From the NCBI RefSeq assembly GCF_013911085.1, contig NZ_JACERN010000003.1:1-64000 (forward strand): a stretch of 64,000 nucleotides of DNA. Direction: 5' to 3'. The DNA comes from Aquitalea aquatica (GTDB lineage: Bacteria; Pseudomonadota; Gammaproteobacteria; Burkholderiales; Chromobacteriaceae). Position 1 is the first letter of the stretch, and the number at the start of each line of letters is the position of its first letter. Below the pieces are notes generated by a model. That model searched no databases. It saw nothing but the letters and a program-made list of their open reading frames with translations, and was not told where the DNA came from. This document shows, piece by piece, positions 1,312-22,959 of this stretch. The position numbers were made by a program, and so were the translations under genes.

Positions 1312-2632
1312 TCTGCTGGACGCCCTGTTAGCCCACTGGCCGGACAATTTGTCCGGCCTTTGTGCTTTTGAAGTCGGGCTGAGTGGTGGGCTCGACTCCA
1401 TGGTGCTGCTCTCGCTGCTGGCGCGGGCGCGTCAGTACCGACCGCAGCTGCAGCTGTCGGCAGTGCATGTGCATCATGGCTTGAACGCTGCCGCAGATGA
1501 TTGGGTGCTGCACTGTCAGGATGTGTGCCAACAGTTGGCCATTCCTCTGCGTGTGGAGCGGGTCGTCATTAATCGTGCTACCGGTGAAAGCCTGGAGGCG
1601 CAGGCAAGGCAGCAGCGCTACACGGTGTTTGCCCGGTCTGCGGCCGAGGTGCTAGTGCTGGCGCATCACCTGGATGATCAATCCGAAACCGTGCTGTTGC
1701 AGCTACTGCGCGGCGGTGGAGTGCGTGCGCTGTCAGGCATGCCGGTATTGCGCAGGCTGGAGAATCTGCAGCTGTGGCGACCATTGCTAGGTTTGACCCG
1801 GCAGCAACTGGAGCAGTATGCCAGCGAGCAGGGGTTAAGTTGGGTAGAGGATGACAGTAATGCTGACATAGCCTACCGTCGCAACTTATTGCGACACCGC
1901 ATCATGCCGCTGCTGCAGCAGCATGTTCCGTCTTATCGGCAACAGCTTGGACGCACTGCCTGGCATATGGCACAGGCATCGCAGCTGGTGGATGAGGTAG
2001 CGGCCGCCGATTTGGCCAGTTGCATGGCGGGTACTGCCCTGGATGTGGGGAGTATGTTGTCGCTGTCAGCCGTGCGGCAGGGTTTTTTGCTGATGGCTTG
2101 GTTGCGGAGTCTGGGGCAAGCGCAAGTGGCACCCGAGCAGCTGCAAGAGTTTCTACGCCAATTACGCGTGGCGGCTGCCGCCAGTCAGCCCTGTTTGCAC
2201 TTGCCAGAGATGGTCGTTGTGCGCTATCGCCAGCAACTGTATGCGGTGCCGGTGCTGTCGCAACAGTCGGCGTGTGTGTTGCGGTTTGATCCTGCTCAGT
2301 CAGTTTGTCTGCTGCCCGGCTGGGGGGGCAGTTTGCGCTGGAAACGGCGCGGTGGTTTGACTTTGCCGTCACTTGCTGGAAATCTGCAATTGCGTCCGCG
2401 CCTGGGGGGGGAGGTGTTGCAACAGATGGTGGGGCGCAAGCCGGTAAAGAAGCTGTTGCAGGAAGCGGGTATTCCACCCTTGCTGCGGCGGCAATGGCCC
2501 TTGTTGTATGCTGCGGACGGTCGCTTGCTGGCACTGCCTGGAGTGGCGGTGGCCAGTGATTGTTTCAGTCCAGAGGGTTATTGGCCTGATTGGCAGCCTG
2601 GATTGGACGATGAAAAAAAAGCGCCCCGGTAG
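1301..2632 (+). CDS. tilS: tRNA(Ile)-lysidine synthase
   Basis: TilS attaches lysine to C34 of the CAU-anticodon tRNA-Ile, switching it from methionine to isoleucine identity. About 443 residues. The N-terminal PP-loop ATPase motif SGGLDSM lies near residue 28, followed by a region with HHGLN and [19 protein letters not shown], both diagnostic of TilS; the C-terminal third contains the KPVKKLLQE signature of the TilS C-terminal tRNA-binding domain. The start at 1301 overlaps the last 11 nt of accA and has AAGGA just upstream, though very close; an in-frame ATG at 1283 is the alternative. The stop codon lies inside the terminator hairpin. Confidence 0.93.
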
Positions 2633-2643
2633 GGCGCTTTTTG
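2613..2643. terminator. Bidirectional intrinsic terminator
   Basis: A run of eight A, the stem GCGCCC/GGGCGC around a short CGGTA-type loop, and a run of five T. It serves tilS on the plus strand and, through the A-run, the convergent Bax-inhibitor gene on the minus strand. The tilS stop codon is in the loop. Confidence 0.85.
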
Positions 2644-2659
2644 CTTGAAGTGCTTGGGC

Positions 2660-3349
2660 TCAGTCACGCTCACCACTGAAAGCCATCAGCAATTGCAGCA
2701 AGCTGGTGAATAGATTGTAAATGCTGATATAGATCGACAGTGCAGCTGAAACATAGCTGGTTTCGCCGCCATCCACTACTACCTTGACCTGCCACAGAAT
2801 CATCAGCGAGCTGAACAGGGCAAAGGCGGCAGCAATGGCCAGCTGCATGCCAGGCATTTGCAGGAAGATGTTGGCCACCACGGCAACCATTAACACGATG
2901 GCACCGATGGTGAGGAAGCTACCCAGCGCGGACAGGTCGCGCTTGGTAGTGCTGGCGATACCGGCCATGACGACAAAAACCAGCGAAGTAGCGGCGCCGG
3001 CTGTCATGATCAGCTGACCACCATTGCTGAAGCGCAGTGCAAATTGCAGCAAGGGGCCCAGTAGCAGGCCCATCATGAAGGTAAAGCCCAGCATCAGGAA
3101 TACGCCCAGCGAGTTATTGCGATTTTTCTCGATGGCAAATACCAGGCCGTAAAAAACCGCCATGATGGCCAGCATGCCCATGATCGGACTGGCTGCCATG
3201 AAGGCAAAGTTAAGATGCGTGCCAATGAGGGCACCCATCACAGTGGGAATCATCGAAAGACCCAGCAGCGCATAAGTATTGCGTAGAACCTTGTTGCGTA
3301 GGCCGCTGGTGGTGCTGGTCTGGTAGGTATTGTGCAGGTCCGGTTGCAT
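2660..3349 (-). CDS. Bax inhibitor-1/YccA family membrane protein
   Basis: A 229-residue inner membrane protein with about seven hydrophobic segments and almost no soluble domain. The pattern of YALLGLSMIPTVMGALIG near the N-terminus, the central FMMGLLLGPLL and the C-terminal LYISIYNLFTSLLQLLMAF with following acidic tail match the bacterial BI-1/YccA (UPF0005) family, whose members modulate FtsH proteolysis or act as pH-sensitive Ca2+ leak channels. AGAGGG precedes the ATG at 3349 by a suitable distance. It is monocistronic, lying between the tilS terminator and the tRNA-Leu region. The family assignment is firm; the specific cellular role is not known. Confidence 0.88.
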   Translation of the reverse strand: MQPDLHNTYQTSTTSGLRNKVLRNTYALLGLSMIPTVMGALIGTHLNFAFMAASPIMGMLAIMAVFYGLVFAIEKNRNNSLGVFLMLGFTFMMGLLLGPLLQFALRFSNGGQLIMTAGAATSLVFVVMAGIASTTKRDLSALGSFLTIGAIVLMVAVVANIFLQMPGMQLAIAAAFALFSSLMILWQVKVVVDGGETSYVSAALSIYISIYNLFTSLLQLLMAFSGERD

Positions 3350-20089: not shown

Positions 20090-21286
20090 ATGCTGCGCCT
20101 GACACCCTATCTGCAAAGCCTGCTCGACCCGGCAGCCGCGCCCGCACGCGGCGGCAAGCCCAGCGGCCCGGTGGTGATCTGGAACCTGATCCGCCGCTGT
20201 AACCTTACCTGTCAGCACTGTTATTCCACCTCGGCCAACAAGGACTTCCTGGGCGAGTTGTCCACTGCCGAAGCCTGTACAGTGATGGACGATCTGTATG
20301 CCTTTGGCGTGCGGGTGCTGATTCTGTCCGGTGGCGAGCCACTGCTGCGGCCGGATATTTTCGAACTGGCCGCCCGCGCCAAGGCCATGGGCTTTTATGT
20401 TGGCCTATCCAGCAATGGCACGCTGATTGATGAGTGCAATATCTCCGCGCTGGCGGCAGTGGGCTTTGATTATGTCGGGGTCAGCCTGGATGGCATCGGT
20501 GCCACCCACGACCGCTTCCGCCGCCTGGCCGGTGGCTACGAGCTGGCCTTGCGCGGCATGCGGCTGGCACGGGATGCTGGCCTCAAGGTGGGCCTGCGCT
20601 ACACCATGACCGAGGACAATGCCGACGACCTGCCGGCCCTGCTGCAATTGCTGGCCGTGGAAGACATAGCCAAGTTTTACTTCTCCCATCTCAACTACGC
20701 CGGACGTGGCAACAAGCACCGTGCCGATGATGCACGCCAGCCACGCACGCGCTGGGCGATGGACTTGCTGATCGAGGCTTGTTTGCAGCACATCCGCGCT
20801 GGCCAGCCGCGCGATTTTGTTACCGGCAACAACGATGCTGATGCGGTCTACCTGCTGCACTGGGCTGCGCGTCATTACCCGGCACAGGCCGCGCAGTTGC
20901 GCCAGCGCTTGCTGGCCTGGGGGGGTAACGCCAGCGGAGTGAACGTGGCCAATATCGACAATCTGGGCAATGTGCATCCTGACACCATGTGGTGGAAGGT
21001 GACGCTGGGCAATGTGCGCGAGCGGCCGTTTTCCGCCATCTGGCGGGATGAGTCTCATCCCTTGATGGCCGGACTGCGCCAGTCGCCACGGCCGGTGGAA
21101 GGGCGCTGCGCCGCCTGTCAGCATCTGGCCATCTGCAATGGCAATACCCGGGTGCGCGCCTGGGAGCTGACCGGCAACTTCTGGGCGGCGGACCCGGCCT
21201 GTTATCTGAGCGATGAAGAAGTAGGCGTGGCCAGCGGCGTGCATGCGCTGGCACCGCTGACGCCATGGCAGAGGGAGACAGCATGA
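20090..21286 (+). CDS. nirJ: NirJ, radical SAM heme d1 synthase
   Basis: NirJ converts 12,18-didecarboxysiroheme by replacing the C3 and C8 propionates with oxo groups. 398 residues. The radical SAM [4Fe-4S] motif is C37-NLT-C41-QH-C44, followed by LILSGGEPLLRPD and GVSLDGIGATHDRFR. The C-terminal SPASM-like cluster-binding region contains GRCAACQHLAICNGN and DPACYLSDEE. The start at 20090 has GGAG upstream; reading farther upstream would run through the regulator box. The stop overlaps nirN (ATGA). Confidence 0.94.
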   Translation: MLRLTPYLQSLLDPAAAPARGGKPSGPVVIWNLIRRCNLTCQHCYSTSANKDFLGELSTAEACTVMDDLYAFGVRVLILSGGEPLLRPDIFELAARAKAMGFYVGLSSNGTLIDECNISALAAVGFDYVGVSLDGIGATHDRFRRLAGGYELALRGMRLARDAGLKVGLRYTMTEDNADDLPALLQLLAVEDIAKFYFSHLNYAGRGNKHRADDARQPRTRWAMDLLIEACLQHIRAGQPRDFVTGNNDADAVYLLHWAARHYPAQAAQLRQRLLAWGGNASGVNVANIDNLGNVHPDTMWWKVTLGNVRERPFSAIWRDESHPLMAGLRQSPRPVEGRCAACQHLAICNGNTRVRAWELTGNFWAADPACYLSDEEVGVASGVHALAPLTPWQRETA

Positions 21287-22959
21287 TGAAGCTCTGGCTT
21301 GTTTTATTCGCCATGGCGCTTAGAGCCGCTAACAAAAACCCTGCTGCTACGTTGCGCCTCCTTGCCGTACCCTTGTACTGTCTGCGTCGGCGCGCCTTGC
21401 CCCAGGGACGCTACGCTATTTTGTTAGCCGCTCTTGGCCTGCCGCTGCAGGCTGCTCCCGCGGCAGACATGGATTCATCCGCTGCCGCGCAGTTATACGG
21501 CCAGCATTGCCAAAGCTGTCACGGGGCTGACCGCTTGGGCGGCATGGGCCCGGCCTTGCTGCCGGAAAGCCTGGAGCGGCTGAAAAGCGCCGAAATCAGC
21601 AATACCATCCGTCAGGGGCGCAGCGCCACCCAGATGGCCGGTTTTGCCGGCCAGCTGACGGATGAACAGATCAGCCAGCTCACCGCTTATGTACAAAGCG
21701 CTCCGGCCACGCCACCGCGCTGGAGCGATGCCGACATGCGTGCTTCGCACCGCCAGCCGGTGGCGCTCTCCAGCCTGCCGGCCAGGCCGCAATACACAGC
21801 CAATCCGCTCAACCTGTTTGTGGTGGTGGAGGCGGGCGATCACCATGTCACGGTGCTGGATGGCGACCGCTTCCGGCCTATCACCCGCTTTGCCAGCCAC
21901 TATGCGGTGCATGGCGGGCCCAAGTTTTCCCCCGATGGCCGCTTTGTCTATTTTTCCAGCCGCGATGGCTGGGTGACCCAGTACGACCTGTACAGCCTGC
22001 AAGTTGTGGCGGACATCCGCGTGGGCCTGAATACCCGCAATATCGCGGTATCGGATGACGGTAACTGGATTCTGGCCGGCAACACCCTGCCGCAAACGCT
22101 GGTGCTGCTGGACGCCCATGGCCTGGCCCCGGTGAAAACCATTGCGGTGCGCGATGCTGCCGGTCGCCCGTCGCGGGTGTCTGCCGTGTACGAAGCCGCA
22201 CCGCGCCACAGCTTTGTGGTGGCGTTAAAAGATGTGCCGGAGCTGTGGGAAATCAGCTACGACCGCCACGCCGCACCGGTTTACCCGGGTCTGGTGCATG
22301 ACTACCAGATGGGCGAGGCGCTGGGTCAGCCGGGCTTTCTTACCCCGCGCGTGACGCCGCTATCCATGGTGCTGGACGACTTTTACTTCGACCCGTCTTA
22401 TCAGCATGTGCTGGGTGCTTCACGCAGCGGTCAGGCGCAGGTGATCAGCCTGGATGCGCGCAGCAAGGTGGCGGACCTGCCGCTGGATGGCATGCCGCAT
22501 CTGGGGTCGGGCATCAGCTTCGAGCGTGATGGCCACCGCATCATGGCCACGCCCAATCTCAAGGGCGGCCAGCTCAGCTTTGTCGACATGGACAGCTGGC
22601 AGTTGATCAGGCAGGTGCAGCTGCCGGGGCCGGGATTTTTCCTGCGCAGCCACGAAAATACGCCCTATGCCTGGGCCGATTCCATGATGAGCGCGCACAA
22701 GGACACGCTGTCCATCATCGACAAGCGCACTCTCAGCGTGGTGCGCCAGCTGGTGTTGCGGCCGGGCAAGACTACCGCCCATGTCGAGTTCACCCGCGAT
22801 GGCCGTTATGCGCTGGTATCGGTGATGGAGAATCCGGGCGAGCTGATCGTGGTGGATGCGCAGACCCTGCGTGAAGTGGCGGCGCTGCCCATGGCCAAGC
22901 CCATCGGCAAATACAATGTGTTCAACAAGGTAAACCGTTCGGAGGGTACCAGCCACTAG
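21283..22959 (+). CDS. nirN: NirN, cytochrome c/d1-binding dehydrogenase with interrupted signal peptide
   Basis: NirN, a paralogue of NirS, oxidises dihydro-heme d1 and hands d1 to NirS in the periplasm. 558 residues: a cytochrome c domain with C76-Q-S-C79-H80, then an eight-bladed d1-type propeller with SHYAVHGGPKFSPDGRF, LLDAHGLAP and KPIGKYNVFNKV at the end. The signal peptide is broken by residues 14-51, encoded by a palindromic repeat. Removing 114 nt restores MMKLWLVLFAMALGLPLQA, a normal signal. The inserted part carries RRR followed by a hydrophobic run, so export from the later segment is still conceivable. Confidence 0.9.
   Translation: MMKLWLVLFAMALRAANKNPAATLRLLAVPLYCLRRRALPQGRYAILLAALGLPLQAAPAADMDSSAAAQLYGQHCQSCHGADRLGGMGPALLPESLERLKSAEISNTIRQGRSATQMAGFAGQLTDEQISQLTAYVQSAPATPPRWSDADMRASHRQPVALSSLPARPQYTANPLNLFVVVEAGDHHVTVLDGDRFRPITRFASHYAVHGGPKFSPDGRFVYFSSRDGWVTQYDLYSLQVVADIRVGLNTRNIAVSDDGNWILAGNTLPQTLVLLDAHGLAPVKTIAVRDAAGRPSRVSAVYEAAPRHSFVVALKDVPELWEISYDRHAAPVYPGLVHDYQMGEALGQPGFLTPRVTPLSMVLDDFYFDPSYQHVLGASRSGQAQVISLDARSKVADLPLDGMPHLGSGISFERDGHRIMATPNLKGGQLSFVDMDSWQLIRQVQLPGPGFFLRSHENTPYAWADSMMSAHKDTLSIIDKRTLSVVRQLVLRPGKTTAHVEFTRDGRYALVSVMENPGELIVVDAQTLREVAALPMAKPIGKYNVFNKVNRSEGTSH
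21322..21434 (+). repeat. MITE-like palindromic repeat inside the nirN signal peptide
   Basis: Terminal inverted repeats AGAGCCGCTAACAAAA and TTTTGTTAGCCGCTCT match at 15 of 16 positions and enclose about 80 nt of GC-rich sequence without a gene. CTT occurs on both outer sides, compatible with a short target duplication. The element plus one CTT is 114 nt, a multiple of three, and the inserted reading frame is open, so nirN stays in frame. No second copy was seen in this window. That it belongs to a mobile or dispersed repeat family is inference. Confidence 0.65.

Follow-up and report, generated by a model that had tools for sequence, protein, structure and literature searches.

The insertion of a MITE in frame into a gene is a known kind of event, and the locus described here is a neat example of a known mechanism, with an unusual patchwork distribution over three genomes. 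The repeat resembles the MITEs of the IS5 family (IS427-like): it is short and gene-free, has terminal inverted repeats (TIRs), is flanked by a TNA-like duplication of 3 bp and exists in many copies, including internally deleted ones of 76 bp. For the IS427 group (PMC3281130), the ISs listed are 832–865 bp long, some having two overlapping frames, and the duplications are mostly of 2 bp, whereas we find 3 bp. As judged from split frames and lengths, the IS427 subgroup is a likeness only, and no named IS is assigned.

Other systems were compared by description. The Rickettsia palindromic elements (RPEs) are palindromic repeats of about 150 bp which lie in frame in protein genes, and they are described as often found in genes (PMC10969869); for the present repeat nirN is, by our screen, the only such gene among 51 genome copies, and the frequent in-frame genic location that characterizes RPEs is not observed. 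The Correia elements of Neisseria, also short MITEs in many copies, are given a length of 204 bp in the same review (PMC10969869), as against 111–112 bp here. The enterobacterial RU-1 and RU-2 repeats have in common with our case that they are MITE-like and read as protein, but they are described with TA duplications and other lengths, which sets them apart. Among titles and abstract openings of the openly licensed literature, we found none that deals with the repeat in either Aquitalea or Chromobacterium, nor any on an insertion in nirN.

A 111-bp insertion in the signal-peptide codons of nirN

The window, i.e. the 64 000-nt stretch of Aquitalea aquatica DNA that was analysed, contains the gene named nirN by a first-pass annotation made from the sequence. 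The name fits the cytochrome c and cytochrome d1 domains of the product (Pfam Cytochrome_CBB3, 4.5e-13, and Cytochrom_D1, 7.2e-100). Its ATG overlaps the stop codon of the upstream gene, which we take to be nirJ from its position and from the known gene order. Shine-Dalgarno pairing for this start amounts to -8.5 kcal/mol, a value equalled by the ATG at 21286, while the other codons scored are weaker. Attachment of haem c takes place in the periplasm, and the CQSCH motif of mature NirN therefore implies a periplasmic protein; denitrifiers are not known to depend strictly on NirN. One of the related genomes, G007, has a second nirN-like gene (L058/L080; 74% identity to the query protein) besides the interrupted one discussed below.

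The N-terminus of the window's NirN consists of MMKLWLVLFAMAL, 38 additional residues and GLPLQAAPAAD, all in one open frame. Ten Aquitalea genomes, of which G000 is that of the window, were compared at nirN: the insertion is present in three (G000, G002 and G007) and absent from seven. A matching uninterrupted signal peptide was found in five of the element-free genomes (G001, G003, G004, G005 and G006), and removal of 114 nt from the filled allele restores a signal peptide of this kind, as the first-pass annotation had predicted; the remaining two, G008 and G009, are more distant, have different signal peptides and lack the element in nirN. Each of the eight closer alleles carries the element complete or lacks its residues altogether. 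The two findings that would have refuted the first-pass reading, namely relatives with these residues but no palindrome and an absence of other copies, were thus looked for, and neither was made.

Since filled and empty alleles differ by 111 bp plus one TTA, the mobile unit is of 111 bp. The target site reads TTA/TTA in G002 and G007, TTA/TTG in the window, and the five empty alleles have one trinucleotide there, TTA or TCA. The first-pass annotation had described a 113-nt element bounded by a palindrome, with CTT on both outer sides. The palindrome stands, arms 21322–21337 and 21419–21434 being complementary at 15 of 16 positions as claimed (14/15 for the 15-bp arms of the element proper, without the one outer base), but the length has to be corrected, and CTT was rejected as the duplication because TTA suits both the filled and the empty alleles. 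An exact 3-mer duplication at the offset of TTA is found in 10 of the 51 copies of G000, versus 0–2 of 51 at 11 other offsets. Coordinates are given in Table 1.

Table 1. Features of the interrupted nirN gene, in positions of the window
Feature	Position	Strand	Basis or remark
nirN	21283..22959	+	cytochrome c domain and cytochrome d1-type propeller; signal-peptide codons interrupted
First 13 codons of the original signal peptide (MMKLWLVLFAMAL)	21283..21321	+	alignment with five empty-site congeners
Left copy of the target-site duplication, 3 bp, TTA	21320..21322	+	filled/empty comparison and offset count
IS5-type MITE, 111 bp	21323..21433	+	51 copies in own genome; same insertion in G002 and G007
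Left TIR, GAGCCGCTAACAAAA, 15 bp	21323..21337	+	resembles IS5-family element ends
Right TIR, GAGCGGCTAACAAAA on minus strand	21419..21433	-	resembles IS5-family element ends
Right copy of the target duplication	21434..21436	+	TTG in the window, TTA in G002 and G007; filled/empty comparison
Remainder of the original signal peptide (GLPLQAAPA)	21436..21462	+	filled/empty comparison
Site of haem c attachment in mature NirN (CQSCH)	21508..21522	+	sequence

The arms pair well throughout the family: when the 15 arm pairs were scored in 81 distinct copies, 1048 of 1207 cells showed pairing. A 119-nt stretch folds better than its dinucleotide shuffles on both strands (z = -3.28 on the plus strand, for which 1 of 200 shuffles was equally good, and z = -3.45 on the minus strand). 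A conserved RNA structure was nevertheless discarded as a candidate, for the alifold consensus of the 81 distinct copies reaches only -2.5 kcal/mol, with covariation next to nil, a weakness that sits oddly with the single-sequence folds and the arm pairing. A known RNA family was likewise rejected (two weak Rfam matches, far under the gathering scores), and so was a phage origin, a phage collection being without any match. We read the arms as putative transposase-binding sites.

The repeat family and its IS5-family relatives

A profile of the element has 51 matches, two of them weak, in 50 stretches of its own genome, 30 stretches coming from a first search and 20 from a later one; the first search by itself listed at least 45 matches, with 40 of 75 first-look candidates scored. 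The TIR pattern, with up to two mismatches allowed, occurs 97 times in the genome as compared to 16 times for a reversed control pattern. Both results argue that the element is not a product of chance and, together with the empty alleles of the relatives, they bear out the earlier proposal of a dispersed short palindromic repeat, with further copies in the genome, inserted in nirN. With no transposase gene, multiple dispersed copies, TIRs and a target-site duplication, the element has the properties of a MITE.

When the ends are extrapolated, 22 of the G000 copies measure 112 bp, nine 111 bp, and eight 76 bp, the lengths of the remaining 12 being different. The eight 76-bp copies (L152, L154, L156, L157, L159, L169, L170 and L171) are internally deleted, mostly with well-kept TIRs. 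From 92 loci of eight Aquitalea genomes we obtained 84 near-complete copies; the trinucleotide on the left is TNA in at least 60 of them, and the flanks are otherwise many and different. One copy with common flanks is identical at 112/112 positions in G000, G001 and G002 (L004, L183 and L188). The family is widespread within the bacterial family searched, with matches in 46 of 61 genomes, own genome included.

IS5-family ISs of other Burkholderiales have TIRs of the same kind and mostly TTA or TAA duplications. A congener, G009, contains a decayed IS5-type sequence, the left end of which is TAA followed by GAGCGGCTAACAAAA. A search with this sequence in 399 genomes of the order, where at most two candidates were scored per genome, gave matches at E up to 1e-20 in at least eight genomes. 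Eleven IS loci were examined: two such TIRs, 864–875 bp apart, are present in six of them (L249–L254), and L255 has a diverged pair. Five of the six, L249–L253 (864–867 bp; genomes G023, G318, G303, G156 and G291), are ISs with ends of type GARYNGCTAACAAAA, the copies of G156 and G291 looking like one IS; in three of the five, GAGCNGCTAACAAAA is found at both ends, with duplications TTA/TTA, TAA/TAA and TTA/TTA. Over all these loci, the duplication is exact in L251 and L253 (TTA/TTA) and in L252 and L254 (TAA/TAA), and unequal in L249 (TAA/TTA), L250 (TTG/TTA) and L255 (TAA/CAA). L254 (875 bp) is a related IS in which ACACCA replaces ACAAAA in the TIR. It has one frame of 280 aa, whereas the frames of the others are split, and its protein clears the threshold of the NCBIfam model NF033580, IS5 family transposase (2.1e-68). 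Matches to Pfam PF13340 or PF01609 were obtained for this protein, which passes both, and for pieces of the L249 and L252 products. Ends and duplication are thus common to the element and to autonomous IS5-family elements.

The reading we favour for the element is that of an IS5-type MITE, which an IS5-family transposase acting on the same ends would have moved in trans. In the window's own genome, no inward-facing TIR pair was detected at a distance of 700–1000 bp with up to two mismatches, the PF13340 search gave no match, the G009 IS sequence gave none among the 2 of 42 candidates scored, and the three PF01609 transposase matches have no matching TIR pair. Among the ten Aquitalea genomes, PF13340 is matched in two and PF01609 in six, and of 19 transposase loci L147 alone has a suitably placed matching TIR. 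As a partner IS was not found in G000, we can only infer mobilisation in trans. The insertion would have taken place in one Aquitalea lineage, at a TTA site within the signal-peptide codons of nirN, with duplication of 3 bp.

Reading frame, altered signal peptide and probable export

The first-pass annotation was right that the insertion is in frame and stop-free: 111 + 3 = 114 nt, or 38 codons exactly. Among the 84 near-complete copies, 44 are of 112 bp, 20 of 111 bp and 20 of other lengths. Of these a frame is preserved by the 111-bp copies alone, and the commonest length would therefore shift it. In the phase of nirN 71 of the 84 copies are stop-free, 19 are both stop-free and frame-keeping, and in two of the six phases no copy is open; the nirN copy lies in the orientation and phase that most often give a copy without stops. 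It is of the 111-bp length class, so that element plus duplication keep the frame. There is no need to invoke a 1-nt deletion restoring the frame after insertion, since the 111-bp form with its 4-nt loop is present in other copies. The surviving insertion is the expected leftover of a filter against broken nirN genes.

A screen for other coding insertions covered the 51 copies of G000 and part of the matches listed from the 61 genomes. In G000, as judged from open frames, GC by codon position and inspection of ten frames by eye, only the nirN copy lies inside a clear coding frame; of the ten spanning frames, those of L153, L164 and L168 probably start only after the element, and the others seemed non-coding or doubtful by eye. 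When the 38-residue peptide was compared to the 61 genomes, the matches listed included no copy in a frame of more than 500 aa other than the three of nirN. Nine more loci, mostly picked for longer frames (in six, a frame extends for 400 nt or more next to the element), showed no additional clear coding insertion by eye: the element is upstream of the likely start in L285, in L286 and in one of the L289 frames, while L288, L275, L268 and the second L289 frame seem to be non-coding.

Hydropathy was calculated in a 10-residue window, and three hydrophobic stretches appear in the filled precursors. The core adjoining the cleavage region is ILLAALGLPL in the window (2.51) and ILLAALSLPL in G002 and G007 (2.47), the cores of the empty alleles being at 2.33–2.73. 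Net charge before this new core is +3, +3 and +2 in the three filled precursors (+3 in the window), and the cleavage region is the original one. The old first hydrophobic stretch is retained (in the window LWLVLFAMAL, at 2.68; 2.0 in G002 and 1.9 in G007). Considering Sec features, hydropathy and charge suit the new core while the old stretch also remains; in the window the latter is even the more hydrophobic of the two, and it could compete with the new core or anchor NirN.

The 3′ half of the element (RRRALPQGRYAILLAAL) would thus supply the positive charges and a new hydrophobic core, joined to the old cleavage region. Since this core is as hydrophobic as those of the empty alleles, with positive charge before it and the original cleavage region after it, export of NirN probably continues, from a precursor 38 residues longer to the same mature protein. 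A restart of translation within the element was dismissed, as its TTG and ATT codons pair more weakly with the Shine-Dalgarno sequence (best -4.8) than does the nirN start.

Could the insertion instead have harmed export, nirN being on its way to a pseudogene? The original hydrophobic core is split, an RNA hairpin begins 40 nt after the start codon and G007 does have its second nirN-like gene. Yet the three filled nirN genes, with open frames of 580, 635 and 580 aa, are free of stops and frameshifts, despite the four changes in the G007 element, and a new core with positive charges has formed; we therefore consider such decay unlikely. The dN/dS values, 0.057–0.083 among filled pairs and 0.048–0.093 among empty pairs, mostly reflect divergence that preceded the insertion and say little about function afterwards.

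History of the insertion allele

The element profile was searched in 108 nirN loci (28 + 80, in overlapping sets), a few of which begin near the gene and may miss its start. The element is found at the start of nirN in four loci from three genomes (L031, L038, L034 and L067, the last two being records of apparently one genome); in L035 and L033 a copy lies elsewhere in the nirN locus.

The copy of G002 is identical to that of G000 (111/111), and the copy of G007 matches at 107/111. G007 differs from both at the same number of sites, four, all of them residue-changing, so that the element sequence is apparently without strong constraint. The first-pass annotation had called the insertion recent, which agrees with the identity of the G000 and G002 copies, but not with the presence of the same insertion in three genomes and the divergence of the G007 copy. 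All three nirN copies have an A at alignment column 26, found in 0 of 81 other copies, and in a FastTree of the copies the G007 one stands apart from those of G000 and G002.

The flanks tell of a different age. Between G000 and G002 the identity of the 30-nt flanks is 24/30 and 27/30, and nirN after the signal peptide gives a dS of 0.392 and a dN of 0.027; we estimate that a neutral 111-nt stretch would show some thirty differences at dS 0.39. The identical tract passes the element ends by 11 nt on the left and 2 nt on the right. Directly left of the G000 element, GGCGCTTA has the same bases as in the other filled alleles, and it is one base off the empty G001 and G003 alleles, which makes it weak evidence for a donor; the wider G000 flanks are nearest to G004–G006. 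The nearest neighbour changes along the two genes, which suggests much recombination at the nirN locus, and identity of the element at such a dS suggests short-tract recombination between species.

One insertion, followed by transfer in short recombination tracts, is the best account: the insertion allele would have reached other Aquitalea genomes later, most likely by homologous recombination over short tracts. For the reading as a whole (an IS5-type MITE that moved in trans into a TTA, kept the frame, probably left export working and spread by recombination) we estimate a probability of about 85%. The rivals address parts of it and are not mutually exclusive. The locus offers a clean natural experiment: among closely related genomes, the export signal of nirN occurs both intact and interrupted by a mobile element, and the empty site, the target duplication and the likely type of transposase are all available for comparison. 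Two questions can thus be addressed, namely how large an insertion can be accommodated by a Sec signal and by what route insertion alleles pass from one recombining species to another.

What speaks against recombination is that the identical tract is very short for a homologous event and that the tree of the copies does not unite all three. Two or three independent insertions at the same nirN site, from a common source copy, would account for an element identical in G000 and G002 within diverged flanks and for a tract stopping almost at the element boundaries. They would, however, have had to hit the same nucleotide in the same orientation in all three genomes, although the many different flanks of the family, with their TNA-like preference only, do not lead one to expect a hotspot; the private base common to the three also argues against them, though an unsampled source could have it. 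Such repeated insertion seems improbable to us. We are similarly doubtful of a reading in which the MITE is a portable signal-peptide module that rebuilds the signal it splits, spread via tracts of nearly element length or by repeated insertion at the same site; if it held true, the 3′ end of the MITE would encode charges and a hydrophobic core.

Lower still do we rate the chance that the insertion has been kept as adaptive, the long signal peptide altering the targeting or amount of NirN. Three genomes have it in nirN and the other screened copies are outside clear coding frames, but 4/4 changes between the G007 and G000 elements alter residues, as expected without sequence constraint, and five of the eight close relatives do without it. 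Hardly credible is a single ancestral insertion inherited vertically and lost elsewhere by precise deletion or replacement, which would fit the private base, the common site and orientation and the sharing of other, intergenic copies by several species, but is contradicted by the lack of any G000–G002 difference in the element at that dS and would need several losses, with only three genomes carrying it at nirN among the 108 loci.

Further arrangements of the repeat were observed outside nirN. In G004, three copies in the same orientation lie inside 343 bases (C1:4340645–4340987). Five plasmid records, from Eleftheria, Cupriavidus and Undibacterium, contain the repeat. On the Eleftheria terrae plasmid (L149:2501–2612) it extends into the 3′ end of a gene annotated as enoyl-CoA hydratase (2575–3282, minus strand), and may supply the C-terminus of that enzyme.
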